This document shows, piece after piece, positions 36,531 through 58,867 of a stretch of 64,000 nt of DNA (position 1 is the stretch's first letter; each line of letters begins with the position of its first letter). The stretch comes from Oscillospiraceae bacterium (GTDB lineage Bacteria; Bacillota; Clostridia; Oscillospirales; Oscillospiraceae), in the NCBI GenBank assembly GCA_009777775.1, contig WRLE01000003.1:62001-126000 (forward strand). The letters are read 5' to 3'. Below the pieces are notes generated by a model that did no database searches, was not told the DNA's origin, and saw nothing but the letters and a program-made list of their open reading frames with translations. The translations under genes and the position numbers were made by a program.

Positions 36531-36555
36531 AATACACATTGGGAGTGTGATACCT

Positions 36556-37164
36556 GTGGATACCACAACACAATATTACGGTGGATTGACAGCGGAGCAG
36601 TTTTTGTTCAATGAAATTCGGATTGTCGCAAAGATGCACCAGGCAAATAAGCCGCTAAATGAAATCATTGATGAAATAAGGAAAGATAACCTTTTCCAAT
36701 ATCCAACTGAGCGGCAGGTGTCGCGCCTTGCTCGTGCGTGTTACAAGCGGCTTATTGCCCTCGACAATGCATACCTAATCAACGAAATAGTGAATGCTCC
36801 AAGTAGAGTAGCAAAACAGATTAATCTTTATGCAATGATGCGACATTATCGTTTGATACGAGAGTTTATGATAAGCCTTGTGGGTGAAAAATACCGTTTG
36901 TTAGACTTCGCCCTTTCTCGGAAAGACCTTAATGTGTTTTTTACCCGTTTGCAAGAACAAAACGATGATATTGCAGCATGGAGTGACAGCACAATAACAA
37001 AGTTAAAGCAAGTGCTAACCAAGTGTTTGGTCGAAACGGAAATCCTTGATACTGTACGTAGTACAGTGCTTAATCCAATATTAATTAGCGAAGAACTCGA
37101 ACGTGGTATACGAGAAAACAACGATTTAAAAGCTCTTGTTGCTTTTAATTGTTTTAGGATTTAG
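36556..37164 (+). CDS. brxA: BREX protein BrxA (DUF1819)
   Basis: BrxA is a small DNA-binding protein of BREX phage defence. The N-terminal YYGGLTAEQFLFNEIRIVA and the helical body (PTERQVSRLARACYKRL, MMRHYRLIREFMI) match the DUF1819 family, as does the 202-residue length. The GTG at 36556 is chosen because GGGAG lies ten bases before it; the GTG at 36547 is too close to that site. It is the first core gene, driven by the promoter at 36502-36530. A REP-like element separates it from brxB by 170 bases, wider than usual in BREX operons. Confidence 0.92.
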   Translation: MDTTTQYYGGLTAEQFLFNEIRIVAKMHQANKPLNEIIDEIRKDNLFQYPTERQVSRLARACYKRLIALDNAYLINEIVNAPSRVAKQINLYAMMRHYRLIREFMISLVGEKYRLLDFALSRKDLNVFFTRLQEQNDDIAAWSDSTITKLKQVLTKCLVETEILDTVRSTVLNPILISEELERGIRENNDLKALVAFNCFRI

Positions 37165-37334: not shown

Positions 37335-37895
37335 ATGAGTGATATTAAGGTAGAGCTTGACAGGATACGAGAACGTCTTTCAGACGAAAACTTTCTTACC
37401 AACAAAGGGCTGTCCAACGAAGTCGGTATTCATGTGTTTTGTTATGACCCAAAACATGAACTCATTGTTCGAGATTTCATTACACGATTAACTTCAGAAT
37501 CTTCAGATATATTCCGAATTATTGAAAGAGATATGTATAATATTTTTCTATCGATCATAGAAGACGAGGATGTGCTTGACGATATTCCGGTTCTTGAAAG
37601 CGAGGAAGGAAAAGAATCATTGCTTGAAACTCTGCAGAATATAGCATCTCCCGATGTCTTCCTAGAAAAAATGAGATACGAACCCCATGAACCTGGTAAG
37701 GATGTACTGTTTCTGACCGGTATCGGTAAGGTTCACCCTTTCATGCGTTCGCATATAATGCTAAATACAATGCAAAAAGCTTTTTCAGACATCCCAATCG
37801 TGATGTTTTACCCCGGAACATTTAACGGGAAAGATCTGAGCTTGTTCGATTCATTTTTTGATGGGAATTATTATCGTGCATTTAATCTATTATAG
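37335..37895 (+). CDS. brxB: BREX protein BrxB (DUF1788)
   Basis: Small BREX core protein, 186 residues as usual for DUF1788. Diagnostic segments are HVFCYDPKHELIVRDFI near the N-terminus, DVLFLTGIGKVHPFMRSH around residue 125, and PIVMFYPGTFNGKDLSLF near the end. Its biochemical role is not settled; it is required for some BREX systems and associates with BrxC and PglX/PglZ complexes. It lies 24 bases upstream of brxC and is probably in the same transcript as brxA. Confidence 0.92.
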   Translation: MSDIKVELDRIRERLSDENFLTNKGLSNEVGIHVFCYDPKHELIVRDFITRLTSESSDIFRIIERDMYNIFLSIIEDEDVLDDIPVLESEEGKESLLETLQNIASPDVFLEKMRYEPHEPGKDVLFLTGIGKVHPFMRSHIMLNTMQKAFSDIPIVMFYPGTFNGKDLSLFDSFFDGNYYRAFNLL

Positions 37896-37919: not shown

Positions 37920-40900
37920 ATGAAAATCCAATCTATGTTCCAAAAAGACATAGACCGCCAAATTAATGGTGTTGTTCAAGTTGGGCAAGATGACGAGAAT
38001 AGCTTATCCCAGGAGCTTGGCGAGTATATCATCACTAGGGAGCTTCGCGGACATTTCGATACATTTTTGAGCAACTACTCAACGGCAATTGATGAGCCTA
38101 CGAGTGACATCGGTGTTTGGATTTCCGGCTTTTTTGGGAGCGGCAAATCCCACTTTCTGAAAATCCTTTCATATCTGCTCTCGAATCAATCCATAGGTGA
38201 AGATACTGCTGTGGATAAGTTCAAGGATAAATTTGAGGACCCGATGATGTATGCCACCCTTGTGCGATGCGCCCAAATCCCAACAGAATCTATCCTTTTT
38301 AACATTGACATAGAAGGACCCATAAACAAAGACAAAACCGCTGTACTGCGTGTTTTCGCAAAAGTCTTCTATAACCACTTGGGGTTTTATGGTAATGACA
38401 TCAAAGTAGCGAAGCTTGAACGACATATTGACAGTCTAGGTAAAACACAGGAATTTCGACAAGCATTCGAAAAAGCAGATGGCAGACCTTGGGTTGATAG
38501 GCGTAAGAGCTACAAATTGCTCGCAGACCGCCTTATTCCTGTACTACAAAATATCCTTGACATAAGCGAAACAACTGCGAGAGATTGGCTTCGGGACAAA
38601 GATACCGAAGAACTGAGCATCCAGCAGTTAGTTGATGAAATAAAAGAGTATGTGGAAAGCAAAGGGAAGAATTTCCGTTTGCTATTTTGTGTTGATGAGG
38701 TGGGACAATATATCGGAGACGACAGTGACCTGATGCTTAATCTCCAATCCATAGTAGAGCAAGTTGGCAGCCAGTGCCTCGGCAAAGTATGGGTAATGGT
38801 AACGAGCCAGGAAGCTATTGATTCCGTTGTGCAAATCAGCGGCGATGATTTTTCAAAAATCCAAGGTCGTTTCAAAACTAGACTCTCCCTCTCCTCTCAA
38901 TCGGTTGATGAAGTCATAAAAAAACGCATCTTGGAAAAAAACATAGATGCTGACAATCTACTTCGACTTGTGTTTGACAAAGAACAAGCAGTTTTAAAGA
39001 ACCTTTTCACCTTCAGCAATGCGGTTCTTGATATAAAGGGCTTCGTGGACGGAGCAGATTTTACTACGACATATCCATTCGTTCCATATCAGTTCATCGT
39101 CATGCAGCAGGTACTCGCCGAAATAAGAAAGCATGGTAATGCAGGAAAGCACCTCTCAGGCGGCGAACGTTCCATGCTCTCCGGCTTCCAGGAGGCTGCA
39201 CAATGGATTAAGGAAAAAGATGAAAACGCTCTTGTACCTTTCTATCAATTTTATGATACTGTTCACACTTTCTTGGATAGTACAATACGCCGTGTAATAG
39301 ACCGCTGCCAAACCGCAGCAGATAACAGTAACGGATTAGAACAAAGAGATGTCAATGTGCTGAAATTGCTCTATCTTGTGCGCTATATAGACGATATAAA
39401 AACCAATATAGACAATATCGCAATTCTAATGATTGACGATATTCGCACGGACAAGATAAACTTGCGTAGAGAAATCGGCGAATCATTGGGTCGTTTAGAA
39501 GCGCAGAATTACGTTTCCCGCCATGGCGATAGCTATTTTTTCCTCACCGACGAGGAACAGGATGTAGCTGTTGATATAAGAAATACTCTCGTCGATAGTA
39601 CACATATTGTCAAAAGCGTCGCACAAACCGTGTTCGGTGAGATTTATCCCTCAAAAAAGTTTAAACATGGGAAGTATGATTTTTCATATGATCAATACAT
39701 TGATGAAACTCTAGTGGGTAATTCTACCGGAGGAGTCCGATTAAGGTTTGTAACGGTGGCAAGCGATTATTATGGAGCACCAAAAGAAAAGCTTATTATG
39801 GATTCCCAGGTCAACAACGAAATTATAATTCTACTCTCAGACGAAACGCCATACTTCTCAGAAATCGAGCAAGCGGCAAAAATACGCAAATATGTCAATA
39901 CCAAGACAGTCCAGCAATTACCCGAGAGCATACAAGACATTATCCGTAAGCAGCAGACACAGGCAAAAATACTTGAAGATAGTGCCAAAGAACAGATTGG
40001 AAAAGCGATTGTAAATGGCATATTTTATGTTTTCGGCGAAAATGTTGATATCAAAAGCGGAGATGCGAAAAGCAAACTAGATTATGCCCTCGCGCAATTA
40101 ATTGACAGTGTGTATTCCAAACTGAGCTTCGTCAATGTCTTTTTTGATAATGATGCTGATGTACTTCAAATTCTAAATAGTGATCCGGAGCAAACTGCTA
40201 TGCCTGGTTCGGGTGCTAACAATGAATTTGCTATAAATGAAATCAGCCAATGGCTCGAAATGCAGACAAGCAATCATGTTCCAGTTTCAATGGGTGACAT
40301 TCAACGGCGGTATCAAGCTATTCCTTATGGATGGCGTGAAGTGGACATTGCAGCCATTGTAGCTCGCTTGATAGCAGAGCAAAAAATCACAATAAAATAT
40401 GGCGGTGCAAATATCTCAAAGGACGACCGCAAGCTTGTGGATTATCTTCGCAAAAGATCCGAGGTTGATAAAGCAAGCGTTACCCGCCGTATCGCGGCAT
40501 CGGAAGAACAAATTCGCAAATCCGTGGTTTTCCTGCGAAATTGGCTTGGACAAATGGGCATTCCAGACGATGAGGATGGGCTTATCCGTTTCGTCATAGA
40601 CACCATTGAGACCAAACAACAGCGTTACAGCAATCTGCTGGAACACGAGTACACATACGACAGCTACCCGCAAAAGGAAACCGTGGTTGATGCAAATACC
40701 CTTATGAATGACATCCTCTCACAGAGTAGAGATAATGTAGCACTATTGAACCGCTTAATCTCAAAACAAGATGATTTGCGAGACTGTTCTGAAGATATGG
40801 AGGCTGTGGAGACCTTCTTTCATACAAATTCGCAGCAACGGATAATATTCGATTCAGCACGAACTATGCAAAAGGATATGCAAAATGAGAGGGATTATTT

Positions 40901-41456
40901 CATCGTTGATACCGATACAAGCAACAAAATAAGCGAAATAACCCAGATTCTCTCCATGCCAAGACCATACGAAAGAATCAAAGACCTACCAGAGCTAATG
41001 CAATCAATAAAAACTGCCTATGAGCAGCTTCTGGAACACAAAAAAGAGGAAATATATGGTATAATCATTCAATGCATGGACGACATCCACACCCTCGCTG
41101 GAGTGGGAGGCAAAGCTAAAGAAGAAGTTGAGATAGCGGATGCGCGATTTAGCGAATACAAGATAAAAACAACCGAAGCTCTGAGCCTTACAGTGCTTGA
41201 TGCTATGGCAACCCAGTTACAAAAATATAAAGACACAGTATGCAATCGAGTGGAAGCGTTGCTATTTGAAACAGTTCCACTGCCTGGTAAAAAAGTCAAC
41301 GATCTACAACCGCCGAGAGTAGTGCAGATGCGCCGTTATGACGTGTTCCCGGTAAAACGCTTGCAAAGCCGAGAGGACGTGGATGCCTATCTTGATGGTA
41401 TTAAAAATAAACTATACGAAACACTTGAAAACAACGACGGAATCCAGATTAATTAG
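37920..41456 (+). CDS. brxC: BREX ATPase BrxC
   Basis: Large P-loop ATPase of type 1 BREX, 1178 residues, normal length. Walker A is ISGFFGSGKSHFLK at residues 70-77. Walker B LLFCVDEVGQYIG is near residue 255, and an R-finger-type region follows (SVDEVIKKRILEKN). The N-terminus MFQKDIDRQINGVVQVGQDD is typical of BrxC. The C-terminal third is helical and probably mediates assembly. BrxC is required for both methylation and phage restriction in characterised systems. The next core gene, pglX, is about 1.5 kb away because an antisense ATPase gene intervenes. Confidence 0.94.
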   Translation: MKIQSMFQKDIDRQINGVVQVGQDDENSLSQELGEYIITRELRGHFDTFLSNYSTAIDEPTSDIGVWISGFFGSGKSHFLKILSYLLSNQSIGEDTAVDKFKDKFEDPMMYATLVRCAQIPTESILFNIDIEGPINKDKTAVLRVFAKVFYNHLGFYGNDIKVAKLERHIDSLGKTQEFRQAFEKADGRPWVDRRKSYKLLADRLIPVLQNILDISETTARDWLRDKDTEELSIQQLVDEIKEYVESKGKNFRLLFCVDEVGQYIGDDSDLMLNLQSIVEQVGSQCLGKVWVMVTSQEAIDSVVQISGDDFSKIQGRFKTRLSLSSQSVDEVIKKRILEKNIDADNLLRLVFDKEQAVLKNLFTFSNAVLDIKGFVDGADFTTTYPFVPYQFIVMQQVLAEIRKHGNAGKHLSGGERSMLSGFQEAAQWIKEKDENALVPFYQFYDTVHTFLDSTIRRVIDRCQTAADNSNGLEQRDVNVLKLLYLVRYIDDIKTNIDNIAILMIDDIRTDKINLRREIGESLGRLEAQNYVSRHGDSYFFLTDEEQDVAVDIRNTLVDSTHIVKSVAQTVFGEIYPSKKFKHGKYDFSYDQYIDETLVGNSTGGVRLRFVTVASDYYGAPKEKLIMDSQVNNEIIILLSDETPYFSEIEQAAKIRKYVNTKTVQQLPESIQDIIRKQQTQAKILEDSAKEQIGKAIVNGIFYVFGENVDIKSGDAKSKLDYALAQLIDSVYSKLSFVNVFFDNDADVLQILNSDPEQTAMPGSGANNEFAINEISQWLEMQTSNHVPVSMGDIQRRYQAIPYGWREVDIAAIVARLIAEQKITIKYGGANISKDDRKLVDYLRKRSEVDKASVTRRIAASEEQIRKSVVFLRNWLGQMGIPDDEDGLIRFVIDTIETKQQRYSNLLEHEYTYDSYPQKETVVDANTLMNDILSQSRDNVALLNRLISKQDDLRDCSEDMEAVETFFHTNSQQRIIFDSARTMQKDMQNERDYFIVDTDTSNKISEITQILSMPRPYERIKDLPELMQSIKTAYEQLLEHKKEEIYGIIIQCMDDIHTLAGVGGKAKEEVEIADARFSEYKIKTTEALSLTVLDAMATQLQKYKDTVCNRVEALLFETVPLPGKKVNDLQPPRVVQMRRYDVFPVKRLQSREDVDAYLDGIKNKLYETLENNDGIQIN

Positions 41457-42924: not shown

Positions 42925-45900
42925 ATGAATAAAAACGCTATTCAAAAATATGCAATATGGGCTCGAAATGAACTAATCGAGCAGATTAAGCAGCGCGCTT
43001 ATCAATATGGTATTGATGAAAAGGGATATGGTGACGAAAATGCAGATTCTATCCCTGGTCATGTGTTTACACCTGATGAAAAACGTCAACGAAAAACTTT
43101 TATACAACGAATTGAAACTCTAACAAAATCAAACACCCAAAATCCTAACCCCTATGCTACTGCCTACACAGCAGCAATAGAGGAAGTCGCCTACACCTGG
43201 TTCAACCGCTTTGTCGCTCTGCGCTTCATGGAAGTCAACGATTATCTACCAACCCATATCCGAGTATTCACTGACGCAAATGGCGCATTCAAACCCGAAA
43301 TCCTCCGCGATGTATTACACATTGATTTGCCGGGAATAGACAAAGAAAAGATAACCGAATACATAAACGCCAACGTCACCGATGACCTATATCGTTATCT
43401 TTTGCTCGTTCAATGTAATGCTCTAAATGAAGCTCTGCCCGAAATGTTTGAAGAAATGGGTAGCTACACCGAAATGCTGTTGCCAAATAATATATTACGT
43501 CAAGACAGCGTTCTTGAGCGACTAGTGACAGACATACCGGAAGAAGACTGGCTAGATGCAGTGCAGATTATCGGATGGATGTACCAATACTATAACACCG
43601 AGCCAAAACAAGCAGTTTTCGATGGATTAAAGAAAAATGTGAAAATCACAAAAGATAAAATCCCAGCTGCAACACAGTTATTCACTCCGGACTGGATAGT
43701 ACGTTATATGGTAGAAAACTCACTTGGGCGGATTTATGTTGGGTCTAGGATATGGGACGTAGGGACTAACTTTTCCGAAGCCGAACGAATCGAGAAAGAA
43801 AAAGAGATCGCCAATGAAATGGGCTGGAAGTACTATCTCCCAGAAGCCGAACAAACCCCAGAAGTCCGAGCGAAGCTTGATAAACTAAATTCTGAATCCT
43901 ACCCACTAAATCCAAATGAACTTAAAATCATCGACCCCTGCATGGGTAGCGGTCATATCTTGGTATATGCTTTCGATGTTTTGATGCAGATATATCGCAC
44001 TGCTGGTTATTCTGACAGAGATGCGGTTACTCTTATATTGGAAAACAATTTGTTCGGACTAGATATTGACAAAAGAGCATATCAGCTTGCATACTTCGCT
44101 ATGATGATGAAAGCAAGACAATACAACCGTCGCATTTTTACCGAAAATGTAAAACCGCAAGTGTATCATCCTATGGGTTGGAGCGACGGCGAGGAATACG
44201 GTAGCTTGTTGAAATTTAGTGGTGAGGATTTAGCAATCGGCGATAAACCAGATAAATTTCTTCCTGATGGTGAAACTTATAATCAAGCATATGATGATGA
44301 ACTTAGGATTTGGAATTTTAAGCGCTTACTTTCGCAGAAATACGATGTGGTTGTTACGAATCCACCTTATATGGGCGGTAAAGGTCAAAGTGCCAGTATT
44401 GCGAAATTTTTAGCAGAAAAATTCTCTGATGTAAAATCCGACACATTCTCAGCTTTTATTGTTCGGTGCAGTGAAATGGCAAAATCGAATGGATACATCG
44501 GTATGTTCACACCATATGTTTGGATGTTTATAAAGCGTTATGAAAAACTACGCAATCTGATTTATACCACACAGTCTATAAACTCGTTAATCCAATTCGA
44601 GTATTCAGCATTTGAAGAAGCGACTGTTCCTGTATGTACGTTTGTATTGCGAAATAATCGCAACTCAAAAATGGGGCAATATGTACGGCTTGTGGACTAT
44701 CGGGGGGGAATGGAAGTACAGCGGAAAAAATATCTAGAAGCGGTTGATAACCCATCTTGTGGTTTTCGATATGCTGCTAACAGTGATAACTTCGCAAAAA
44801 TCCCTGGCATACCAGTGGCTTATTGGGTGAGCAAAGCGATGTTGCGAGCATTTGAAAGTCCACGCCTTGCTGATGTATGCGAGACTCGCAAAGGCCTTGC
44901 AACATCAGATAACAATCGTTTTCTAAGGCTTTGGTTTGAAGTATCAACATCCAACATCTCATTCGATTGTCTTTCAAATGACGAGAGTAAGGTGTGTGAA
45001 AGAAAGTGGTTTCCCATTAATAAGGGTGGTGAGTTCAGACGTTTCTATGGTAACAATGAATACATAATAAACTGGGAAAACGATGGCAATGAAATAAGGA
45101 ACTTCCGTGATAATGATGGAAAACTTCTCTCTAGACCGCAAAATCTCGCATACAACTTTAAACAAGCAATCACTTGGACTAAAATAACATCTGCATTATT
45201 TTCTTCACGTATCTGTTTTGGTGCTTCATTGTTTGATGACGCTGCTGCAATATGCTATCACGACGATATAGATATTCTTCTTTATGTGATGGGGTTTCAA
45301 AACACAAAACTATGCAATAGCTTTTTGAAGATATACAATCCTACTATGAATATTCAGATTGGTGATATTGGCAACCTCCCCATAACTACAGTTCATAGCG
45401 AGAAAGCGTTCGTAATTTCTATCGTCACCAAGAACATCGCCCTCTCTCGCACCGACTGGGATTCGTTTGAAACCTCATGGGATTTCAAGCGGCATCCGAT
45501 TGTTGTATTAGGAAACTCCACTCCCCCGTTAGTTGACTATAAGGATTTGTGGAAAACCGAACCTCTTTCAACATATATCGAACATACGCAATATGGAGAA
45601 GTCCAACGGTCATATGACGAACCCCATCGTAAGATAGAGTTTGCTTTTTTGGATTGGGAGAGATTTACTGACACACAATTCCAAACCCTCAAAGCCAACG
45701 AGGAAGAACTCAACCGCATATTCATCGACATCTACGGCTTGCAAGACGAACTCACGCCGGAAGTTGATGAAAAGGACGTGACCGTGCGCCGCGCTGACTT
45801 GGGACGCGAGATTCGATCGCTCATTAGCTATGCCGTGGGTTGTATGTTCGGGCGATACTCTCTTGATGTTGAGGGACTCGCATTTGCAGGTGGCGATTGG

Positions 45901-46506
45901 GATGCGGCGAAGTACACAACTGTCATTCCCGACAATGACAATATAATCGCAATCAGTGACGATGAATATATCGAAGACGATATATTTGAACGTTTCATAG
46001 ATTTCCTTCGCAAGGTTTATGGAGCGGAAACTCTGGAAGAAAACCTGAGCTACATCGCTGATGCCCTAGGGGGCAAAGGCACTCCCCGCGAGGTCATCCG
46101 AAACTACTTCTTGAATGGTTTTTATAAAGACCATTGCAAAATATATCAGAGACGCCCTATTTATTGGCTCTTTGACAGCGGAAAGAAAAACGGCTTTAAA
46201 GCCCTGATGTACCTACACCGATACTCTCGCGACCAACTTGCTAAGCTGAGGACTGAGTATGTTCATGAACAACAGGAACGCTACCGCACCCAGCTTGTTC
46301 ATATCGGAGAATCGTTTGCTAGCGCAAGCGGAGCGGAGCGCGCGAGACTAACAAAGCAGCAAAATAAACTAACTGAGCAACTGTACGAAATAAGCGTTTT
46401 TGAAGAAAAGGTCCACCACCTCGCAGATATGCAAATAGAAATTGATTTGGATGATGGCGTAAAGCGAAATTACGAGCTTTTCGCTGATGTGTTGGCTAAG
46501 ATATAG
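42925..46506 (+). CDS. pglX: BREX adenine-N6 DNA methyltransferase PglX
   Basis: PglX marks host DNA at non-palindromic sites so that BREX spares it. The 1193-residue protein has the S-adenosylmethionine motif DPCMGSGHIL (from residue 337) and catalytic NPPY (479-482). A variable region of about residues 600-900 should hold the target-recognition domain. The C-terminal 280 residues (KANEEELNRIF to FADVLAKI) are the conserved tail, and are present again, diverged, at 52521-53486. GGAG is ten bases before the ATG. The upstream palindromes at 42723-42813 may control expression, separately from the brxABC promoter. Confidence 0.95.
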   Translation: MNKNAIQKYAIWARNELIEQIKQRAYQYGIDEKGYGDENADSIPGHVFTPDEKRQRKTFIQRIETLTKSNTQNPNPYATAYTAAIEEVAYTWFNRFVALRFMEVNDYLPTHIRVFTDANGAFKPEILRDVLHIDLPGIDKEKITEYINANVTDDLYRYLLLVQCNALNEALPEMFEEMGSYTEMLLPNNILRQDSVLERLVTDIPEEDWLDAVQIIGWMYQYYNTEPKQAVFDGLKKNVKITKDKIPAATQLFTPDWIVRYMVENSLGRIYVGSRIWDVGTNFSEAERIEKEKEIANEMGWKYYLPEAEQTPEVRAKLDKLNSESYPLNPNELKIIDPCMGSGHILVYAFDVLMQIYRTAGYSDRDAVTLILENNLFGLDIDKRAYQLAYFAMMMKARQYNRRIFTENVKPQVYHPMGWSDGEEYGSLLKFSGEDLAIGDKPDKFLPDGETYNQAYDDELRIWNFKRLLSQKYDVVVTNPPYMGGKGQSASIAKFLAEKFSDVKSDTFSAFIVRCSEMAKSNGYIGMFTPYVWMFIKRYEKLRNLIYTTQSINSLIQFEYSAFEEATVPVCTFVLRNNRNSKMGQYVRLVDYRGGMEVQRKKYLEAVDNPSCGFRYAANSDNFAKIPGIPVAYWVSKAMLRAFESPRLADVCETRKGLATSDNNRFLRLWFEVSTSNISFDCLSNDESKVCERKWFPINKGGEFRRFYGNNEYIINWENDGNEIRNFRDNDGKLLSRPQNLAYNFKQAITWTKITSALFSSRICFGASLFDDAAAICYHDDIDILLYVMGFQNTKLCNSFLKIYNPTMNIQIGDIGNLPITTVHSEKAFVISIVTKNIALSRTDWDSFETSWDFKRHPIVVLGNSTPPLVDYKDLWKTEPLSTYIEHTQYGEVQRSYDEPHRKIEFAFLDWERFTDTQFQTLKANEEELNRIFIDIYGLQDELTPEVDEKDVTVRRADLGREIRSLISYAVGCMFGRYSLDVEGLAFAGGDWDAAKYTTVIPDNDNIIAISDDEYIEDDIFERFIDFLRKVYGAETLEENLSYIADALGGKGTPREVIRNYFLNGFYKDHCKIYQRRPIYWLFDSGKKNGFKALMYLHRYSRDQLAKLRTEYVHEQQERYRTQLVHIGESFASASGAERARLTKQQNKLTEQLYEISVFEEKVHHLADMQIEIDLDDGVKRNYELFADVLAKI

Positions 46507-48849: not shown

Positions 48850-49158
48850 TTTGAAGTTTTTATTAACCGCTTATGCTGACATTTTTAGTGTAATAGCTAG
48901 TATGTATAAAGCGATTGATGAAGGATATGAGTTAACAATAGAATAATTATTTATTTTTCATGATGATTCGAATATCAGTATCAAGAATGTAGACATCCTT
49001 TATTGATTATTGACAACCCTCAATTTGATAGGTTCATTATTGATTAATAGACTATAAAAATAATGCAAGGATTATTCAAGCAGTAACTAAGTGTTACGAT
49101 CAAACAATATATGAATGTTAAGCCACAGCATTAGACTTTAGTATTGGAGGCACACATT

Positions 49159-49641: not shown

Positions 49642-49690
49642 TAGTCAGCATTTAATGCGCTAATAATAAATAACTAAGGAGTGGAGATAA

Positions 49691-49933: not shown

Positions 49934-49934
49934 T

Positions 49935-50150: not shown

Positions 50151-50272
50151 TTATGAATGGAAAAGGTAGAACACGGATAGAACATCTGAAAGTAGGAACT
50201 GAAATTTTTTTAAATCACAGCGAAATTCTTGAGAAATCAATGATGAAATCTTGTATATAGGAAACTGTGCGA

Positions 50273-50626
50273 ATGGATAATAATATTATAACAGACCCAT
50301 GCGTTTACGATATCTCAAAGAGAGTTGTGCAAGCTGCGAAAGATACGTTTATGGATAAATTAGATAAGGTTTATCTTTATGGTTCGTATGCTCGAGGCGA
50401 TTATGATTACGAATCTGATATAAATTTCATGATAATCGTTGACACATCGCAAGAGGAAGCCTGTGCAAAACATACAGAAGTGAGAAGTCATATGCCTGGC
50501 ATTGATTTGGAATTTGACATACTTGTGTCTTGCTGCGTTACCAGTAGCGAAGTCTTTAACCAATATGTAAACGATCTCCCGTTTTATTCAAATGTGGTTA
50601 GGGAGGGAATCGTAGTAAATGACTGA
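50273..50626 (+). CDS. MNT-type nucleotidyltransferase with degenerate active site
   Basis: Minimal nucleotidyltransferase fold of the MNT/HEPN systems: VYLYGSYARGDYDYESDI gives the GS motif and first acidic residue, but the second position of the DxD pair is Asn (DIN), so one metal-binding Asp is missing. A third acidic residue may be in LEFDILV. MNT enzymes add AMP groups to HEPN RNase partners. This one has no adjacent HEPN of its own; the next gene is another MNT. It may be inactive or a regulatory paralogue. The ATG at 50273 is preferred to GTG at 50267 because of AGGAAAC spacing. Confidence 0.75.
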   Translation: MDNNIITDPCVYDISKRVVQAAKDTFMDKLDKVYLYGSYARGDYDYESDINFMIIVDTSQEEACAKHTEVRSHMPGIDLEFDILVSCCVTSSEVFNQYVNDLPFYSNVVREGIVVND

Positions 50627-50648
50627 TGAAAATAGAAAGGATAAATCA

Positions 50649-50966
50649 ATGCTAACCAACGACAACATTAGAGACGCTGTTTATGAGATTGTTCCAGCTT
50701 CTATAATTGAACAAATCATAGTTTTTGGCTCCCAAGCTCGTGGAGATAATACCGAAGACAGTGACACAGACATCTGTGTCATTGTTACGAATCAACTAAC
50801 AAGAAATGAAATTAAGATATATAGATATGAGCTTAATAAACTATTTGCTTCTAAGTATCGTGTCCCAACTGATATTCTCATCAAGTCTAGTTATGATTAT
50901 GGAAGATTTAAAAATCAGATTGGTGCGATAGAATACGCCATAGCTTCTGAAGGAGTAGTTATATGA
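50649..50966 (+). CDS. MNT-type nucleotidyltransferase, antitoxin of an MNT/HEPN pair
   Basis: The active-site segment IIVFGSQARGDNTEDSDTDI has intact GS and DxD motifs, and a later acidic strand (VPTDILIK) completes the site. The enzyme should AMPylate or otherwise modify its HEPN partner and keep it inactive. The ATG at 50649 with AAAGGA before it gives a 105-residue protein of standard size; an earlier ATG at 50619 overlaps the previous gene. Its stop overlaps the HEPN gene in ATGA, so the two are co-translated. Confidence 0.82.
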   Translation: MLTNDNIRDAVYEIVPASIIEQIIVFGSQARGDNTEDSDTDICVIVTNQLTRNEIKIYRYELNKLFASKYRVPTDILIKSSYDYGRFKNQIGAIEYAIASEGVVI

Positions 50967-51382
50967 GTGAAAAGCAGGATCTAATACTAAACCTGACTGA
51001 CAAAGCAAACCGAGATCTAAAAGCAGCTGAAGTCTTACTAAAAGACGAAGATGCTGATTTTCATAGTGGTAATATATGCTTCCATTGTCAACAAAGTATA
51101 GAAAAGTATCTAAAAGTGTTTTTAATAAGCAAAGATGCTCTAGCTCCAAAAACTCATGATTTGCTATTTTTGACAGAACTGTGTTCAGATTTTGATGAAC
51201 ATTTCAAATCATTTGATTTTACCGACTTTGCAAGCTTTGGTGTAGAAATACGATATGACAATGACATACCTACATTAGATGAAGCGAAGAAAGCAGTTGA
51301 AGTTGCAAAGCTAGTTGCAGAATACATTATGACTCTAACTCTATATGAAGAAGTCCCAAATGACGAGAATACAAACAGCTGA
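50963..51382 (+). CDS. HEPN-domain protein, partner of the MNT
   Basis: Helical HEPN protein of 139 residues. NICFHCQQSIEKYLKVFLI followed by KTHDLLFL is the hallmark of the PF05168-type HEPN class. A canonical RX4-6H RNase motif is not evident, though RYDNDIPT near residue 98 is in the position of the last motif of this class. Toxin activity is therefore uncertain. It overlaps the upstream MNT by four bases. The 3' end runs into a small pglX remnant, whose reading frame begins before the HEPN stop. Confidence 0.82.
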   Translation: MSEKQDLILNLTDKANRDLKAAEVLLKDEDADFHSGNICFHCQQSIEKYLKVFLISKDALAPKTHDLLFLTELCSDFDEHFKSFDFTDFASFGVEIRYDNDIPTLDEAKKAVEVAKLVAEYIMTLTLYEEVPNDENTNS

Positions 51383-51446
51383 TAAATTCGTTGCATGGGA
51401 GAAAGCGACCACCGAGTGGTTCAATACCTTGAAAGCCAACGAGTAA
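51378..51446 (+). pseudogene. Vestige of a pglX C-terminal segment
   Basis: Reads ADKFVAWEKATTEWFNTLKA then NE and a stop, matching the start of the pglX fragment at 52521 (ADKFAAWEREADDRFNTLKA). It is a third pglX trace in the locus. The following stretch (51447-51613) contains a relict frame SERLEYKREIDDGYQRTVVD with a stop at about 51613, unlike pglX. Confidence 0.75.
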
Positions 51447-51613
51447 GAGCTGTGTATTAAAAAGAAGACAACTAATATATCAGTTATTAAATCAGAGCGT
51501 CTAGAATACAAACGCGAGATTGATGATGGCTACCAGAGAACGGTTGTTGATTATCGTAGCAATAGTATTCAGCAAAAGCTAATACGTTTGTACAATTTTT
51601 TGCTGAAAATGGG

Positions 51614-51853
51614 ATGAATGATATGAAATGCTTTATGTGTAAGGGAAGGCTTGAAGATAAAATTACTACGTTTATGGTAGAAGTTGGGAAAAATGTTATC
51701 ATTATCAAAAATGTACCTACGCAAGTTTGTAAACAGTGCGGAGAACACTCGTATTCTGACGATGTTGCACGAAAAATCGAGACAATTGTAAAAATGTTGA
51801 AAAATTCCATCAGCGAAATTTCTGTCGTAAGTTATACAGATAAAATAGCATGA
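51614..51853 (+). CDS. YgiT-type zinc-finger protein (MqsA N-terminal-like)
   Basis: A 79-residue protein with CFMCKG near residue 6 and CKQCGEHSYSD near residue 38, a CxxC...CxxC zinc site as in the N-domain of MqsA antitoxins. A helical tail follows (ARKIETIVKMLKNS) but no helix-turn-helix DNA-binding domain. Free-standing YgiT-type proteins are usually antitoxin-like partners of a DUF4258 or MqsR toxin. No such partner is next to it; the upstream 150 bases look like decayed coding DNA, so the toxin may have been lost. ATG at 51623 is an alternative start. Confidence 0.75.
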   Translation: MNDMKCFMCKGRLEDKITTFMVEVGKNVIIIKNVPTQVCKQCGEHSYSDDVARKIETIVKMLKNSISEISVVSYTDKIA

Positions 51854-51905
51854 CTATATGTATATGATGGTGGTCTGTGCAAGCGAAGATATCGGAGATA
51901 AATAA

Positions 51906-52250
51906 GTGAGCAATATCATAGAAAAGGATAATATAGTAAAAGCAGAACTTGACCGTCATGTGTCATTCATTTCAGAAATGGATGGTGTGATACAAATCTA
52001 TTTATTCGGCTCATATGCATATGGCACACCGACAACAGACAGCGACCTCGATTTACTGGTTATTGTAGAAGATGGCATTGACCCAATAAAGACAATACGT
52101 GAGATCAAGCGGGGTTTAAATAAGGGAACTGTTTCTGTTGATATACTAACAATTAATAAAACCGACTTTGATGAACGTTCAAAACCCGACCGAGTGACAT
52201 TGCAAAGAGAAATCAAAAACAAGGGAATCTTGTTATATGGCGAGCAATGA
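51906..52250 (+). CDS. MNT-type nucleotidyltransferase
   Basis: Third MNT of the island. IYLFGSYAYGTPTTDSDLDL has complete GS and DxD motifs, and VSVDILT supplies the third acidic residue. Start is GTG at 51906, with GGAG about ten bases before it. No HEPN gene follows; downstream DNA to 52496 holds only repeats. It may be an orphan antitoxin, or may act on the HEPN at 50963. The length, 114 residues, is typical. Confidence 0.8.
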   Translation: MSNIIEKDNIVKAELDRHVSFISEMDGVIQIYLFGSYAYGTPTTDSDLDLLVIVEDGIDPIKTIREIKRGLNKGTVSVDILTINKTDFDERSKPDRVTLQREIKNKGILLYGEQ

Positions 52251-52284
52251 CTGTCAAGAATGGCTAAGATATACAAGCATAGAG

Positions 52285-52435
52285 ATTGACTAAAGACAGC
52301 AAACACAAAAAATATTAGTCACTTTCTAGTCAATATGCTATGATGCAAATAGAGCAAAACTCTGTGTTTACAAGGCTTTGTGTATTGACTAAAAACAACA
52401 TATGAACCAGTAGCTAAGTCAGTTTCTAGTCAATA
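52285..52435. repeat. Two related elements bounded by inverted 8-bp ends
   Basis: Element A (52285-52334) and element B (52383-52435) both start with ATTGACTA and end with TAGTCAAT, and share inner words (CTTTCTAGTCAAT vs GTTTCTAGTCAAT, ACTAAAgACAgCA vs ACTAAAaACAaCA). They lie 99 bases apart, just before the pglX fragment. They may be regulator sites or remnants of a small element. The gap 52251-52520 contains nothing else recognised. Confidence 0.7.
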
Positions 52436-52520
52436 CCAGATGCGAGAAACAGATTGGTACGACTGATTACGAAATAGCTGCTGTAGGAGCAGTTATTTGA
52501 ATGTGAAAAAGGATAAAATC

Positions 52521-53486
52521 ATGGGTACATTGATAGCTGATAAATTCGCCGCTTGGGAGCGAGAAGCTGATGATCGGTTCAACACCCTTAAAGCTAACGA
52601 GGAAGAACTCAACCGTATATTTATCGAAATCTACGGTTTACAGGATGAACTCACACCAGAGGTCGAAGACAAGGATGTGACTGTGCGCCGTGCCGATTTA
52701 GGGCGAGAGATACGTTCGCTTATCAGCTATGCCGTTGGCTGTATGTTCGGACGCTATTCATTAGAAGCAGAGGGGTTAATATACGCAGGTGGCGATTTTG
52801 ACGAAAAATTCATCCAAATAAACGGTCAATATTATTTGAGAGAAACAGCCGAAAAACACCCCGATACCAACCTCTATTCCCAAACCTCTAACCCTTACTA
52901 CAGCGTAGATTCCGATAACATTATCCCCATTTGTGACGATGAATATTTCGAGGACGACATACTTGAACGTTTCATAAATTTCCTTCGTAAGGTTTATGGA
53001 GTGGAAACTCTAGAAGAAAACCTGACTTTTATTGCCGATGCACTCGGTGGCAAAGGCACTCCCCGGGAGGCTATCCGAAACTATTTCCTGAATGGTTTTT
53101 ATAAAGACCATTGCAAAATATATCAGAAACGCCCGATATACTGGCTCTTTGACAGCGGAAAGAAAAACGCCTTTAAAGCCCTGATGTACCTACACCGGTA
53201 TTCGCGTGACCAACTTGCCAAGCTTAGGACGGATTATGTTCACGAGCAACAGGAACGATATCGTGCACAGCTTACACATATCGCTGAATCGCTAAACATT
53301 GCAAGTGGAGCGGAGCGTGTGAGGCTCACAAAACAGCAAAATAAACTAACGGAGCAACTGAACGAAATAAGCGTGTTTGAAGAAAAGGTTCACCACCTCG
53401 CTGATATGCAGATAGAAATTGACCTAGATGACGGCGTTAAGCGAAATTATGAGCTTTTCGCTGATGTGTTAGCAAAGATATCCTAA
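52521..53486 (+). pseudogene. C-terminal fragment of a second pglX allele
   Basis: The frame equals only the last part of PglX: KANEEELNRIF onward aligns with residues about 920-1193 of the intact protein, ending in the same FADVLAKI. The methyltransferase motifs and target-recognition region are absent. Nucleotide similarity to the intact gene is roughly 80 percent by eye with many synonymous changes, higher near the end, so it is not a recent copy. It contains a region (FDEKFIQINGQYYLRE, about residues 92-107) not present in the intact gene. An ATG with AAAGGAT before it could still make a 321-residue protein. pglZ follows after 35 bases. Confidence 0.85.
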
Positions 53487-53521
53487 ATCCTAAATCCTAC
53501 AGCGAACGGAGTGAGCAACGC

Positions 53522-56500
53522 GTGACGACAAATTTTACATTCCTTACGGAAATGTTTCCAGAGCTTGAAAAAACAGGCAGCCTAGCAGAAGGCTACCTTT
53601 ACTCCGACCCGAACACCTGCCTTTATAAGCTTGGTACTTTTGCGGAGATAATGGTCAACTATATGTTTGACCTAGACAATTTGGATTTGCCTGTGACTGA
53701 CAATACACACTCCAACCGTCTGAGGATTTTGTGGCAGGAGGGGTATCTGCCACAGAATATCAATAATATCTTTTATGTGCTGAGAAAAAAGCGTAACGAT
53801 GCAGTACACGAGGGATACGATTCTTTGGAAGAATGCAAAACCTTGTTGCAGCTTGCACATACTCTTTCGGTTTGGTTTATGCAGGTATATGGAGATTATT
53901 CTTATGAATCATCAGGGTATGTCTTTCCTGATGACAACCATAATCAATCCGGCCACCAAGCCTTGCTAGACGAAAACGAAAAACTAGCATTGGAACTCGA
54001 ACAGACAAGGTCTGCGATGTTACAAGCTCTTGCGGCAAAGGCAGTACAGGGAGACCAGCGCAAAAAGCAAGCTGACCGAGCAACACGGAAAATCAAGCTG
54101 ACAGAAAGAGAATCGCGCTACCTGATTGATGAGCAGTTGCAAATAAGGCTAACGGACATGTTTACTGCGCCATTACCGGAATTCCATAAACGCCGCATCG
54201 TCTTTTGGAAGGACGAGGACGGCGAATTTATAGAACAAGTTGATAAGATTGCTTTGTCCGAAGTGTCTTTGATAAAACTCACAGGGTCTAACAATTTTGC
54301 TGTGAAAAAATTGCTATCTGCTGACGATTTGACAGGAAACTATCTTGTATACAGTCCGATTGCTTACGAGAGTATACAAGACAACTGGCTTCTTGATATA
54401 GAGCTTTACAGCGAAGAATTTCGTGCAGATATGGTGTCAATGCAGATGGATGAGCTGCATATCGAGCCCACTGCTGTTATGCGCAAAACCGTAAAACTCT
54501 ATTCCAAATTTTTTGAAAATAAAGAACGTAGAACAAAACTGCAAAAAATCGGCAATACATATAGCACACCCCTTGCTCTCCACACTGACATCATGGCTGT
54601 GCTTTGTGGAGCTAGCGGCGGTACGATGCAGGACATAATATTTGCTGTTTTACTGGAGGGCTTTGCTAAAGAGGATAATAAGGCACTTGATAGTATTAGG
54701 CGTTTTGGAAATATCGAAGCTTTTTGGCAGCTAATCCAAAGATATACCGGATACATTGATGCGGATGATCGTGGGATTGACGAGCTTGCGGCGCATATTT
54801 TGCTCACTGCATTATCGCAGACTATTAGTGACTCATATTTACAAGGATTGGAACGTTTTATTTCAGATTCCAATAAGGCTTATTGCTACCAGTTGGTCGA
54901 TGAATGGCAACGGGACGAAAACATCGACGAAGTAATAGAATTATTCCGTGTAGTGGAATATAATTTGCATCTGTTAGACCGTTTTAGCAAAATGGATACT
55001 GATGTTTTGCTGAAATGCGACACTTTTCCAGCTATAAACGAATGTATGTTGGTAGCAATATTCAGTGAGATAGCAGAAAATGTGATAAAAGTGGATCAGA
55101 TTTATAATGCTGTAGAAAACAGGCGCACATCTGCTTGGTATGAATTATCTGCGGATTATTTCGACTGCTTATACTATATTGCTAAAATGCAGGAATTTTT
55201 CCTCGCGAATATACAAGGTTTCCACTTCGCTGAGGCGAAAACCTTGTGGCAATCATATACCAATTATTTCTACGTAATGGACAGCCATTATCGGCATTTT
55301 CATATTTCCTTTAACAATACTATCAAAGCGCCGAATCCTGCCCTTGATGATTTAATCAGAAAATGCGCAGATGTGATCGAAGGATTGTATCATAATTGGT
55401 TCTTAAAGGGTTTGACAGAAAACTGGACAGGCTTAATTGCCGAGGGCTTCGAGAATCTTGGTTATGTGTCCGAACTACCTCGTCAACGTGGTTTTTATAC
55501 CAAATATGTTGCAGCAACAGTAAAAAGCGGGAAACGTGCTTTTGTCATAGTTTCAGATGCGTTGCGATATGAAGTGGCTGCACAGCTTGCTGAGAGTCTG
55601 AGCCATCACACAAAAGGTAAAGTGGATGTAGCTGCGATGCAGGCGATTTTTCCCTCAACGACAAAATTCGGAATGGCTGCATTGCTTCCAAATAAAATCA
55701 TTTCTATCAATGAAAAATATGAGGTCGATGTAGACGAAAAAAGTACAAAAGATACCCCACAAAGAGAAGCTGTGCTTATTGCCACCAATCAAAATAGTGT
55801 TGCAGTTGCATATAATAAGCTGCTTGAAATGAAGCAACAGGAACGTCGTGAATTGGTGCAAGGCAAGGAAGTTATCTATATTTATCACAGCGCCATTGAC
55901 GCAATCGGTGAAATGCGCTCCACAGAGAAAAAGGTGTTCGAAGCCTGTGACACTGCAATTGAGGAGATATCGAGCATTGTTCGCATGATAGTAAATGATT
56001 TCAGTGGAACAGATATATTCGTAACTGCGGATCATGGTTTCCTCTATACTTACAAACCTTTGGAGGAAAGCCAGAAAATAAGCCGTCAGACATTTGATGG
56101 CGATGTTTATGAACTGGGGCGACGTTATGCCCTCGTAGCACCCTTTACCACATCTGAGCACCTGCTCCCTGTTAATATCGGAGAGGAAATGGCTGGTATT
56201 CCTATAAGAGGATATGCGCCGCAATACACAGTCCGAATTAAAGTTGCTGGGGGCGGAGATAATTATGTCCACGGCGGTATCAGTTTACAGGAAATAGCAG
56301 TGCCGGTAATCGTCTACAAAGCTATGCGATCTCGCAGCAAAAAGTATATTGAAGTAACAAATCCAGGTTTGACCCTCATAAGCGAAAGTAGAAAAATCGC
56401 AAATCTAATGTTCTCATTGGAATTTATGCAAAGGACGCCTGTGGGTGATAAAGTACAGCCTTGCAACTACTCGCTGTACTTCATTGGTGATGATGGAGCA

Positions 56501-56713
56501 AAAATCAGCGATGAGCAGACCGTCATTGCGGACAGGTCAAGTGCAAACGCATCAGAGCGTGTGTTCCGCGTCAGGTTTACTCTTAAATCAATGTCATTCG
56601 ACAGAAACATAGCCTACCGCCTTATAATAGCCAATGATACGGATGCGCCGGAAGAGGTGGAGTTTCGCATTGACATCGCTTTTGCTGATGATTTTGGGTT
56701 TGATCTTGAGTAG
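53522..56713 (+). CDS. pglZ: BREX protein PglZ with extra N-terminal DUF4145/HEPN-like domain
   Basis: Core BREX alkaline-phosphatase-superfamily protein. Metal-binding residues are in VSDALRYE (D679) and TADHGFLYTY (D837, H838). At 1063 residues it is about 200 longer than the usual type 1 PglZ as I remember it. The surplus is at the N-terminus: residues 20-125 read YLYSDPNTCLYKLGTFAEIM and LRKKRNDAVHEGYDSLEECK, matching the DUF4145 domain at the start of type I restriction HsdR proteins, including an RX4H motif (R91, H96) typical of HEPN RNases. A charged coiled linker (about 140-200) follows. Start is GTG at 53522 with GGAG ten bases before it. Confidence 0.93.
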   Translation: MTTNFTFLTEMFPELEKTGSLAEGYLYSDPNTCLYKLGTFAEIMVNYMFDLDNLDLPVTDNTHSNRLRILWQEGYLPQNINNIFYVLRKKRNDAVHEGYDSLEECKTLLQLAHTLSVWFMQVYGDYSYESSGYVFPDDNHNQSGHQALLDENEKLALELEQTRSAMLQALAAKAVQGDQRKKQADRATRKIKLTERESRYLIDEQLQIRLTDMFTAPLPEFHKRRIVFWKDEDGEFIEQVDKIALSEVSLIKLTGSNNFAVKKLLSADDLTGNYLVYSPIAYESIQDNWLLDIELYSEEFRADMVSMQMDELHIEPTAVMRKTVKLYSKFFENKERRTKLQKIGNTYSTPLALHTDIMAVLCGASGGTMQDIIFAVLLEGFAKEDNKALDSIRRFGNIEAFWQLIQRYTGYIDADDRGIDELAAHILLTALSQTISDSYLQGLERFISDSNKAYCYQLVDEWQRDENIDEVIELFRVVEYNLHLLDRFSKMDTDVLLKCDTFPAINECMLVAIFSEIAENVIKVDQIYNAVENRRTSAWYELSADYFDCLYYIAKMQEFFLANIQGFHFAEAKTLWQSYTNYFYVMDSHYRHFHISFNNTIKAPNPALDDLIRKCADVIEGLYHNWFLKGLTENWTGLIAEGFENLGYVSELPRQRGFYTKYVAATVKSGKRAFVIVSDALRYEVAAQLAESLSHHTKGKVDVAAMQAIFPSTTKFGMAALLPNKIISINEKYEVDVDEKSTKDTPQREAVLIATNQNSVAVAYNKLLEMKQQERRELVQGKEVIYIYHSAIDAIGEMRSTEKKVFEACDTAIEEISSIVRMIVNDFSGTDIFVTADHGFLYTYKPLEESQKISRQTFDGDVYELGRRYALVAPFTTSEHLLPVNIGEEMAGIPIRGYAPQYTVRIKVAGGGDNYVHGGISLQEIAVPVIVYKAMRSRSKKYIEVTNPGLTLISESRKIANLMFSLEFMQRTPVGDKVQPCNYSLYFIGDDGAKISDEQTVIADRSSANASERVFRVRFTLKSMSFDRNIAYRLIIANDTDAPEEVEFRIDIAFADDFGFDLE

Positions 56714-56773: not shown

Positions 56774-58867
56774 ATGCAGGAAGAAGAGCGAGGGAGCGGT
56801 GTTTTTATTGGTGAAATTGATACTGGTGATGGGAACGCAGTTTTGAATAGAAAGCTACGGGAGTTTTTTGATGGGAAGATTGTTCGCAAGGATTTGACTA
56901 AGCGGCTTCGGGAAGGGGCTAATGTGCCTGTATATGTCCTTGAATACTTGCTCGGTCAATATTGCAGTTCGGACGATGATGATATAATTGAGCAAGGCAT
57001 GGAGAACGTGAAACGCATACTTTCAGATAACTTCGTGCGTCCAGATGAGGCTCAGAAGATTCTCTCTGCGCTTCGAGAACGCGGTTCATATACAGTAATC
57101 GACAAACTGACTGTTGTGTTGAATATCAGCAGAGATAGATATGAAGCCGAGTTTTCTAACCTTGGATTGAAAGGCATTCCTGTTTCATCCGACTATGTTT
57201 CACAATATGACCGCCTGCTTTGTGGTGGAATCTGGTGCATCGTACAACTAGAATATGAGTTCATCGAAGAAGATAGAAAAAACACTCCCATCAGTGTGAG
57301 GAAGCTGACTCCGATTCAGATGCCCCATGTTGACATGGACGATATAAAGAGCGGGCGCAAAGCTTTCACAAAAGACGAGTGGATTACGATACTGCTCCGC
57401 TCCACGGGAATGGAATCTGATAAATTCACATATCGCGAAAAATGGCTGCTGCTTGCCCGAATGATTCCGTTGATTGAAAACAATTATAACCTATGCGAAC
57501 TAGGTCCCCGCAGTACGGGTAAATCGCATATTTATGAGCAAATATCGCCAAATAGCATTCTTGTTTCAGGTGGACAGACCACAACTGCGAACCTGTTCTA
57601 TAATATGGCAAGCAAAACAATCGGGCTTGTGGGTCTTTGGGATTGCGTTGCTTTTGACGAAGTTGCAGGACTGAAGAATCTAAAAGACAAAGATGTAGTT
57701 GAGCTAATGAAGGGTTATATGGCATCTGGGTCATTTTCTAGGGGTAAAGAAGAAAAATCGGCTACTGCCTCAATGGTGTTTGTCGGAAATATCAACCAAA
57801 GCGTTGACGTATTGCTGAAAACATCCCACTTATTTGAGCCTTTCCCAGATGCGATGGCATACGACACAGCATTTCTTGACCGTATACATAGTTACATCCC
57901 AGGATGGGAGATACCGAAATATCGTCCTGAGTTCTTTACAGATGACTATGGTTATATTACTGACTTTTTAGCTGAATTTCTCCGTGAAATGCGTAAAGAA
58001 CCCTTTGGCGATGCGTTAGATAAGCATTTCCGTCTCGGATCGAATCTCAATCAACGAGACACTATCGCCGTGAGGAAAACGGTGTCGGGATTTACGAAAC
58101 TGCTTTACCCTGATGGTGTTTTTACAAAAGATGAATTAAGCGAAATAATTGAAATTGCCTTAGAAATGCGCCGCAGAGTCAAAGAGCAACAAAAGAAAAT
58201 AGGAGGTATGGAGTTTTTTGATGTGAACTTCTCATACATCGATAATGACTCTTTTGAGGAGCATTTTGTTACCTCTCCAGAGCAAACAGGCGGGAAACTT
58301 ATACCAGAAGGACTCAGCAGCCCAGGGCAGCTTTACACCATTTCCCAAGGTAAATCAAGCATGATAGGTGTTTTTCGTTTAGAAGCGCAAATGCTACCGG
58401 GAAACGGAAAGTTTGAAAGAACGGGAATCGGAACAGACCGTGATGTACGCGAAGCTACTAACACTGCCTTCAATTTTCTGAAGGCAAACGGTAATACAAT
58501 CAGCGGAAGCATAAGTACTACCACTAAAGACTACATCATCAATTATCAAGATATGCAAGGCATTGGTATGACAAGATTCCTCGGGTTGCCAACTCTCATT
58601 GCCATTTGCTCCATTGCTTTGGGAAAACCATTGTTGTCGAGCACAGCAGTATTGGGCGATATCAGCATAAGTGGTATATTAGTCAAGGTCGAGGAGCTTG
58701 CCAATGTGTTACAAGTGTGCCTTGATAGTGGTGCAAAAAAAGTGTTGCTGCCGATTACATCAGCAGCAGAATTGGGTCAAGTGCCTTCGGACTTAATCGG
58801 AGCATTCAGTCTGATATTCTATACAACAGCACAAGAAGCGGTGTTCAAGGCTTTAGGCGTGGAGTAG
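56774..58867 (+). CDS. brxL: BREX protein BrxL (Lon-like AAA+ protein)
   Basis: BrxL binds DNA as a ring-forming AAA+ motor in type 1 BREX. The N-terminal domain (LNRKLREFFDGKIVRKDLTK, then VPVYVLEYLLGQYCSSDDDD) is typical. Walker A is GPRSTGKSH (residues 244-252), with a Walker B-type segment CVAFDEVAGL near 295. The C-terminal Lon-like domain (QDMQGIGMTRFLGLPTLIAI, GDISISGILVKVEELANVLQ) lacks an obvious catalytic Ser, in keeping with BrxL not being an ordinary protease. The length of 697 residues is normal. TTGGAGG precedes the ATG. It is the last core gene of the operon. Confidence 0.94.
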   Translation: MQEEERGSGVFIGEIDTGDGNAVLNRKLREFFDGKIVRKDLTKRLREGANVPVYVLEYLLGQYCSSDDDDIIEQGMENVKRILSDNFVRPDEAQKILSALRERGSYTVIDKLTVVLNISRDRYEAEFSNLGLKGIPVSSDYVSQYDRLLCGGIWCIVQLEYEFIEEDRKNTPISVRKLTPIQMPHVDMDDIKSGRKAFTKDEWITILLRSTGMESDKFTYREKWLLLARMIPLIENNYNLCELGPRSTGKSHIYEQISPNSILVSGGQTTTANLFYNMASKTIGLVGLWDCVAFDEVAGLKNLKDKDVVELMKGYMASGSFSRGKEEKSATASMVFVGNINQSVDVLLKTSHLFEPFPDAMAYDTAFLDRIHSYIPGWEIPKYRPEFFTDDYGYITDFLAEFLREMRKEPFGDALDKHFRLGSNLNQRDTIAVRKTVSGFTKLLYPDGVFTKDELSEIIEIALEMRRRVKEQQKKIGGMEFFDVNFSYIDNDSFEEHFVTSPEQTGGKLIPEGLSSPGQLYTISQGKSSMIGVFRLEAQMLPGNGKFERTGIGTDRDVREATNTAFNFLKANGNTISGSISTTTKDYIINYQDMQGIGMTRFLGLPTLIAICSIALGKPLLSSTAVLGDISISGILVKVEELANVLQVCLDSGAKKVLLPITSAAELGQVPSDLIGAFSLIFYTTAQEAVFKALGVE

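Follow-up and report, generated by a model that had tools for sequence, protein, structure and literature searches.

Known systems related to the fusion protein

The closest described counterpart of the larger part of the protein studied here is type A PglZ of BREX-1 systems (TIGR02687), such as those of E. fergusonii and Salmonella (PMC12205998, accessible part). Both share the complete PglZ core, but the BREX-1 proteins lack the 207 HsdR-like N-terminal residues found here. T538 and H741 of E. fergusonii PglZ have been mutated, and BrxB is predicted to bind residues 1-96 of Salmonella PglZ (PMC12205998, same part). The smaller part resembles HsdR subunits of the NF008521/PRK11448 type with a DUF4145 N-terminus (up to 57% identity over residues 1-207; the best relative, L060, is a gene of a Treponema MAG found in the genome_contigs search). 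In these HsdR proteins the N-terminus is accompanied by the nuclease core, motor and C-terminal domains, whereas the fusion protein has PglZ in their place.

Some other systems combine similar modules. BxaP (ORF376; PMC10799925, accessible part) links a DUF4145 module to both BREX and type I restriction-modification (R-M), as here; it is found in BREX loci of type 3 and in type I R-M loci of phages, and it defends E. coli, likely by an abortive mechanism. However, BxaP is encoded by a separate gene, has a weak HEAT-like C-terminus and belongs to type 3 BREX, and a fusion to PglZ is not described in that part of the report. PglZ of most type 4 BREX systems (PMC12839542) carries an N-terminal inactive STAND domain, i.e., an extra N-terminal module as in our case, but the domain is unrelated and the BREX type is another one. 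Furthermore, the HEPN-DUF499 ATPases of BREX-related systems have an N-terminal HEPN domain on a core component as well, although both the core protein and the HEPN family are different (PMC12839542, accessible part). Literature searches on BREX, PglZ, HsdR, DUF4145 and HEPN yielded no HsdR-PglZ or DUF4145-PglZ fusion, and neither 'DUF4145' nor 'HsdR' is mentioned in the main text of PMC12839542.

A probable fusion gene in a complete BREX type 1 locus

The window (the whole analysed stretch of 64,000 nucleotides from contig WRLE01000003.1 of an Oscillospiraceae bacterium) contains a BREX type 1 locus that is complete, the six genes brxA, brxB, brxC, pglX, pglZ and brxL all being present together (Table 1). 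Its pglZ gene is most likely a genuine fusion, which encodes an HsdR(HEPN-like)-PglZ protein; we are nearly certain that this gene fusion is real. The open reading frame has no internal stop, and its position, frame and length are as the earlier note on this DNA had read them. The HsdR piece begins 35 bases after the free-standing pglX C-terminal gene. Promoter and terminator scanning of positions 52200-54300 gave 5 and 2 sites, respectively (4.4 and 2.0 in shuffled sequences).

Besides the BREX genes, the locus carries DUF3990 and DUF3791 genes (49144-50150). The stretch 50267-52250 encodes an HEPN domain protein (50963-51382), three small nucleotidyltransferases (genes at 50267, 50619 and 51906) and a protein with a weak MqsA-like match, and looks like toxin-antitoxin-like cargo.

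Table 1. Features of the fusion gene, its BREX locus and the neighbouring type I R-M operon (window coordinates unless a locus is named).
Feature	Position	Strand	Basis or remark
brxA	36547..37164	+	Pfam
brxB	37335..37895	+	Pfam
brxC	37920..41456	+	profile matches
ATPase gene	41460-42680	opposite strand	PADLOC PDC-S01
pglX, full length	42925..46506	+	profile match
PDC-S46 gene	starts 46609		PADLOC; within BREX locus
small genes	49144-52250		several toxin-antitoxin-like by look; within BREX locus
free-standing pglX C-terminal-domain gene	52497..53486	+	329 aa; directly upstream of fusion gene
possible ribosome-binding site GGAG	53508..53511	+	10 bases 5' of GTG; seen in sequence
hsdR'::pglZ fusion gene	53522..56713	+	1063 aa, GTG start
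HsdR-like N-terminal extension, residues 1-207	53522..54142	+	NF008521; ends of HsdR-type matches
DUF4145 (HEPN clan) match, residues 22-100	53585..53821	+	below Pfam cut-off
RNDAVH (R91-X4-H96), HEPN-type RX4-6H motif	53792..53809	+	alignment, residues 91-96
fusion junction, about codons 206-208	54137..54145	+	hsdR-like ...GAT GAG CAG TTG / pglZ-like CAA ATA AGG CTA...
PglZ part, residues 208-1063	54143..56710	+	profile matches and alignment to PglZ relatives
PglZ domain PF08665, residues 671-846	55532..56059	+	Pfam
T714, probable equivalent of T538 of E. fergusonii PglZ	55661..55663	+	9nv3_C alignment
H917, probable equivalent of H741 of E. fergusonii PglZ	56270..56272	+	9nv3_C alignment
brxL	56774..58867	+	profile matches
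type I R-M operon	L098:10377-19632		contig C3, about 18-27 kb after pglZ

The two parts of the protein

The PglZ part is matched strongly and along its whole length: TIGR02687 (BREX-1 PglZ type A) covers residues 218-1039 with 592.6 bits, far above its curated cut-off of 270.35, and PADLOC PDLC02564 covers residues 204-1060 with 961.8 bits, in line with the suggestion of the earlier note that the usual PglZ domain follows the extension. Along the PglZ core, the protein can be aligned with the solved chains 9nv3_C (E 1.5e-101) and 9zn5_B. T714 and H917 pair with T519 and H722 of 9nv3_C in an alignment that does not contain the E. fergusonii sequence itself; since the spacing of 203 residues is the same, they probably correspond to T538 and H741 of that protein. 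The counterpart of the BrxB-binding region predicted for Salmonella PglZ is retained here as well, from about residue 208.

The type I restriction endonuclease model NF008521 (PRK11448) covers residues 3-165 (E 9.4e-38, 129.9 bits). This stretch corresponds to positions 4-164 of the 1123 model positions, and the score stays below the cut-off of 729 bits for a whole HsdR. PADLOC PDC-M16A matches residues 3-214 (E 3.3e-23). HsdR nuclease (PD-(D/E)XK core) or helicase/motor families are absent from the Pfam matches of the fusion protein. Downstream of the Treponema gene, its contig has ORFs resembling the rest of hsdR and then hsdM (by eye); this closest hsdR relative (L060:4971-8270) is itself present as two ORFs of 341 and 751 aa.

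Within the extension, the Pfam family DUF4145 (PF13643) is matched with E 5.6e-4 and 20.4 bits for the full protein (20.8 bits for residues 1-207 alone), which is under the gathering score of 23.1 bits. The kinship is nevertheless clear, because DUF4145 is matched at E <=0.01 by all 32 sequences of an alignment of the window protein with 31 others (best 1.9e-9; L074 and L087, for which no start was found, and L066, with 169 residues, were left out). Weak HepT-like matches were seen in two of these sequences. DUF4145 belongs to the HEPN superfamily, with a motif described as 'mostly conserved (80%)' (PMC3710099, accessible part). Judged from the sequence, R91-X4-H96 (RNDAVH) conforms to the RX4-6H motif by which HEPN RNases are recognized. 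Note that an RX4-6H motif was found in 52% of composition shuffles (RNxxxH in 1.5%); because the motif alone means little, the HEPN case rests on homology. H96 and R88 are present in all 32 sequences, N92 in 31 and R91 in 27; as the other five have G in place of R91, the canonical motif is not kept by every member. Apart from R88 and H96, the invariant positions are N4, F7, L8, A22, E23, D29, K36, E42, L70, W118, F119, Y123 and G124. Residues 1-197 have no match among solved structures at E 10 (a profile gives E 0.25 or worse); in a profile match to the HEPN toxin 6m6u, which is weak and not significant (E 0.26), RNDAVH and the motif of the toxin are in register.

The earlier note had thus correctly recognized an HsdR- and DUF4145-like N-terminus with an intact RX4H motif. 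It placed this similarity at residues 20-125, however, and the borrowed piece extends from residue 1 to about 207; likewise, the DUF4145 match in Pfam that it had proposed to look for is present, but with a score under the curated cut-off. The RNA cleavage or complex docking that it suggested would be possible roles (see below).

The junction

Matches confined to the N-terminal part end at residues 205-209 in 11 of 19 rows in the 398-genome sample, 11 of 14 in the 391-genome sample and 8 of 9 in the 394-genome sample, and at 27 of 29 loci in genome_contigs. The remaining ones end earlier or, rarely, extend further (G737 to 218, L070 to 272); four of the plasmid matches listed (best 40 of 355) extend to residues 249-268 at 26-28% identity. 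From the other side, the ATG codons of three PglZ relatives align without gaps with residue 201 (for L103 the ATG was chosen as start, another possible start being a TTG 36 bases upstream). At the DNA level, resemblance to the nearest pglZ starts around codon 207-208 (CAA ATA AGG CTA in the window, AAA CTA AGG CTT in L103), just after the HsdR-like ...LIDEQL. Taken together, the match ends, the ATG alignment and the DNA similarity indicate that the PglZ start register was kept and that the HsdR front reaches up to ...LIDEQL. Judged by this alignment, the loss of PglZ sequence amounts to about 6-7 residues, which are replaced, and the parts apparently shared with HsdR are the HEPN-like domain, a charged linker and the first helix. 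There are possible in-frame internal starts at codons 206 (TTG) and 213 (ATG, with AAGG upstream), from which a near-normal PglZ without the extension could be made.

The nature of the junction bears on the trivial explanation that the join was made by the assembler, which we regard as very improbable. The assembly consists of 35 contigs (97.25% complete, 1.86% contamination), and the extension has the highest GC3 of nine gene segments (0.469), which would speak for a chimera. Against a chimera, the join is in frame and lies at the pglZ start, and overall GC (0.438 in the extension, 0.417 in the PglZ part) and codon use of the two parts are close. Moreover, two misjoins would be needed, because the HsdR piece has the pglX C-terminal gene 35 bases upstream, a neighbour that pglZ itself directly follows in L104 and L106, and has pglZ and then brxL downstream.

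Occurrence of the fusion

Genomes were sampled at the family, class, order and phylum levels. Four of the samples (398, 391, 394 and 63 genomes in overlapping sets, all from the phylum of the window) gave 26, 23, 8 and 5 new full-length PglZ, respectively, full-length being defined as one match row from residue <=230 to >=1000, with partial and split matches left out. Two more samples (101 and 12 genomes) gave no new complete PglZ. In all 62 other full-length PglZ counted in these samples the extension is absent (match start at residue 166 or later); this comparison of lengths and N-termini, which the earlier note had proposed, rules out that it is a universal PglZ feature. The frame length is 841-900 aa in 61 of them, compared with 1063 aa here; the note's estimate of about 200 extra residues therefore holds. 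The exception, G229, appears with 2065 aa owing to read-through of stops, its own frame being 859 aa (in tblastn, the match at this locus, L017, starts at residue 152).

Other collections gave no second case. Among the plasmid matches listed (best 40 of 355 records) there was no fusion, and one record covered at least 80% of residues 1-330, being annotated as hsdR. No fusion was present in 10 phage records, none of which covered 80%, or in viral_contigs. In genome_contigs (one per species), searched with six peptide patterns, 29 of 30 loci had the extension part and one had PglZ, and none was confirmed to have both. As all counted genomes come from the phylum of the window and the other collections are limited, it is less certain how rare the fusion is beyond this phylum. 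The fusion looks rare, this being the only example of an HsdR front end on a BREX PglZ found here, so that there is no conservation of the fusion as such.

Several candidates for a second fusion were rejected. In H108/L101, pglX and pglZ are separate ORFs, as is an ATP-binding-like gene; L070 is an HsdR-type gene; L117 is cut by the contig end and has no BREX match upstream; in L123 and L124 pglX and pglZ are in separate frames.

The accessory-gene slot and the likely origin of the fusion

In four related loci, pglX is split at one and the same place into two genes, with other genes inside the split (L105:6981-11332, L119:2953-9625, L120:9786-14570, L121:6861-11303). The N part ends with ...ETSWDFKRHPLV, and the C-terminal domain is encoded by its own gene, restarting with MGQLIS.. 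or MGRLIS... Compared with these relatives, the window has a full pglX plus a free-standing C-terminal gene. What is encoded between this C-terminal gene and pglZ differs among the four loci: an unassigned protein of 301 aa, a protein of the AlbA/Schlafen kind, an AAA_21 ATPase accompanied by a small ORF, and a DUF2971 protein. In L103, where pglX is unsplit, the gene of an AlbA_2 protein separates it from pglZ, and L104 and L106 leave no room for a gene there. Thus, in the window, the HsdR piece occupies a slot where several relatives have unrelated accessory genes. A relative of the DUF3990 gene of the window (39.6% identical, residues 6-159) is found between pglX and pglZ in L107.

Recombination in the region is suggested by repeats of the 3' part of pglX within 45654-46236 and 52553-53213 (87% and 76% identical stretches), together with a decayed copy of the beginning of the pglX C-terminal gene near 51339-51452 (38 residues at 52.6% identity, interrupted by a stop). 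The decayed copy lies at the end of the HEPN gene and appears to be a trace of an earlier recombination. A likely history is that an hsdR gene was present in the slot and a deletion then joined hsdR to pglZ.

A donor in the same genome was not identified: used as a query, the window protein matches only itself at E 0.001, with neither a second PglZ nor a second extension. In the resident type I R-M operon (L098), Pfam identifies an HsdS and an HsdR whose DUF4145 N-terminus is of another kind (RRVGNDAAH), while an HsdM and an ATPase/HNH-like pair were recognized by eye only; its hsdR, about 18 kb downstream of the fusion gene, was therefore discarded as a donor. The hsdR on contig C7 was dismissed too, its N-terminus being different by eye.

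Constraint on the extension

The fusion may be a young hsdR-pglZ accident, the extension being a passive passenger on a normally working PglZ. Besides the abundance of rearrangements in the neighbourhood and the alternative internal starts, the frequency (one fused protein among 63 full-length PglZ, this one included) speaks for such a tolerated scar. The extension is, however, open over 207 codons without frameshift or stop, and most of the conserved HsdR positions are kept. With conservation levels set by 25 other non-redundant sequences, it keeps 28 of 31 positions at the 90% level (2 of the 25 sequences are lower), 47 of 52 at 80% (13 lower) and 52 of 61 at 70% (10 lower). At the strictest level it is thus near the low end, with fewer positions kept than in most HsdR-type copies, which again would suit a scar.

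Amino-acid change is not clearly faster than in HsdR, which speaks against a scar. In the tree, the extension forms a group with L060 and L061, the inner order of which is open; its tip branch is 0.45, compared with 0.36 and 0.64 in these two, respectively (0.43 and fifth longest of 31 with a simpler model). The ratio of unique changes at codon positions 1+2 to those at position 3 is 3.6, and 3.4, 3.8, 3.4 and 1.58 in four HsdR-type copies. In its own frame the codon use falls within the range spanned by 54 BREX gene segments, and in the two other frames it falls outside. To judge from these data there is no sign of clear decay, which argues against long neglect and fits a recent accident or a selected fusion alike. 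The same intact picture is expected from a recent event, and we consider the scar explanation unlikely, if one to be reckoned with.

Possible role of the fusion protein

Of four readings, our first choice, which we hold tentatively and at a probability short of even, is that the extension is an accessory HEPN effector placed in cis with PglZ. On this analysis, hsdR codons 1 to about 207 would have been joined in frame to pglZ, almost without loss, the site being the accessory-gene slot that follows the pglX C-terminal gene in this complete BREX type 1 locus. It would be translated as one chain with an HEPN-type domain (intact RX4H), a charged linker and a complete PglZ; the BREX complex would carry the HEPN module along and restrain it as a second, RNA-directed effector, which might be set free on triggering or inhibition of BREX, in line with proposals for restriction nucleases that carry fused HEPN domains. 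In favour of an accessory effector, an HsdR N-terminus and a complete PglZ are matched strongly within one open frame, and relatives fill the same slot with other accessory genes; BxaP, a DUF4145 protein with a likely abortive action, offers an analogy. The single example, the low retention of conserved positions at the 90% level, the replacement of R91 by G in five of 32 sequences and the internal starts at 206 and 213 speak against it. We know of no RNase activity of an HsdR N-terminus.

Alternatively, the HEPN-like domain and the linker may make protein contacts without RNA cleavage, by which PglZ would be dimerised or else tethered to either PglX or the type I system encoded about 20 kb away; in HsdR itself, the contacts would perhaps be with HsdM or a second HsdR. 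The variation at R91, together with the invariance of R88, H96, W118, F119, Y123 and G124, suits such a structural role too. Furthermore, the R subunit meets the methyltransferase core through M (PMC3874165, accessible part), and HsdS, HsdM (by eye) and a DUF4145-bearing HsdR are encoded on the same contig. The N-terminus of this resident HsdR is, however, too different to be found with the window protein at E 0.001. We consider a docking role improbable, though a serious competitor of the accessory effector. A role of the HsdR piece as a ClpXP degron was considered and set aside, as a study of EcoKI HsdR detected no simple terminal degron (PMC4231737, accessible part).

A more far-reaching version of the effector proposal would be a two-effector BREX protein, in which a single chain combines PglZ as a DNA nuclease with an HEPN RNase derived from HsdR; a phage blocking or triggering BREX would then free an RNA-cleaving suicide module. 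We regard this version as possible but unlikely. If true, it would make HsdR N-termini portable HEPN effectors and would mean that type I restriction and BREX swap effector parts in cis. In any case, an HsdR front domain that was naturally moved onto PglZ allows this domain to be examined apart from the HsdR motor: an effect of residues 1-207 on RNA or on PglZ assembly would suggest a role of the domain in HsdR too. The final step of BREX against phages is debated. Furthermore, the slot before pglZ may be a route by which accessory modules reach a BREX core protein.

A possible further host of the module is encoded by L118:1-6240 (minus strand), a protein of at least 2080 aa that begins with a divergent relative of the extension domain (29% identity). 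RX4H was not seen by eye in this protein, and the domain is followed by what appears, by eye, to be a large helicase.
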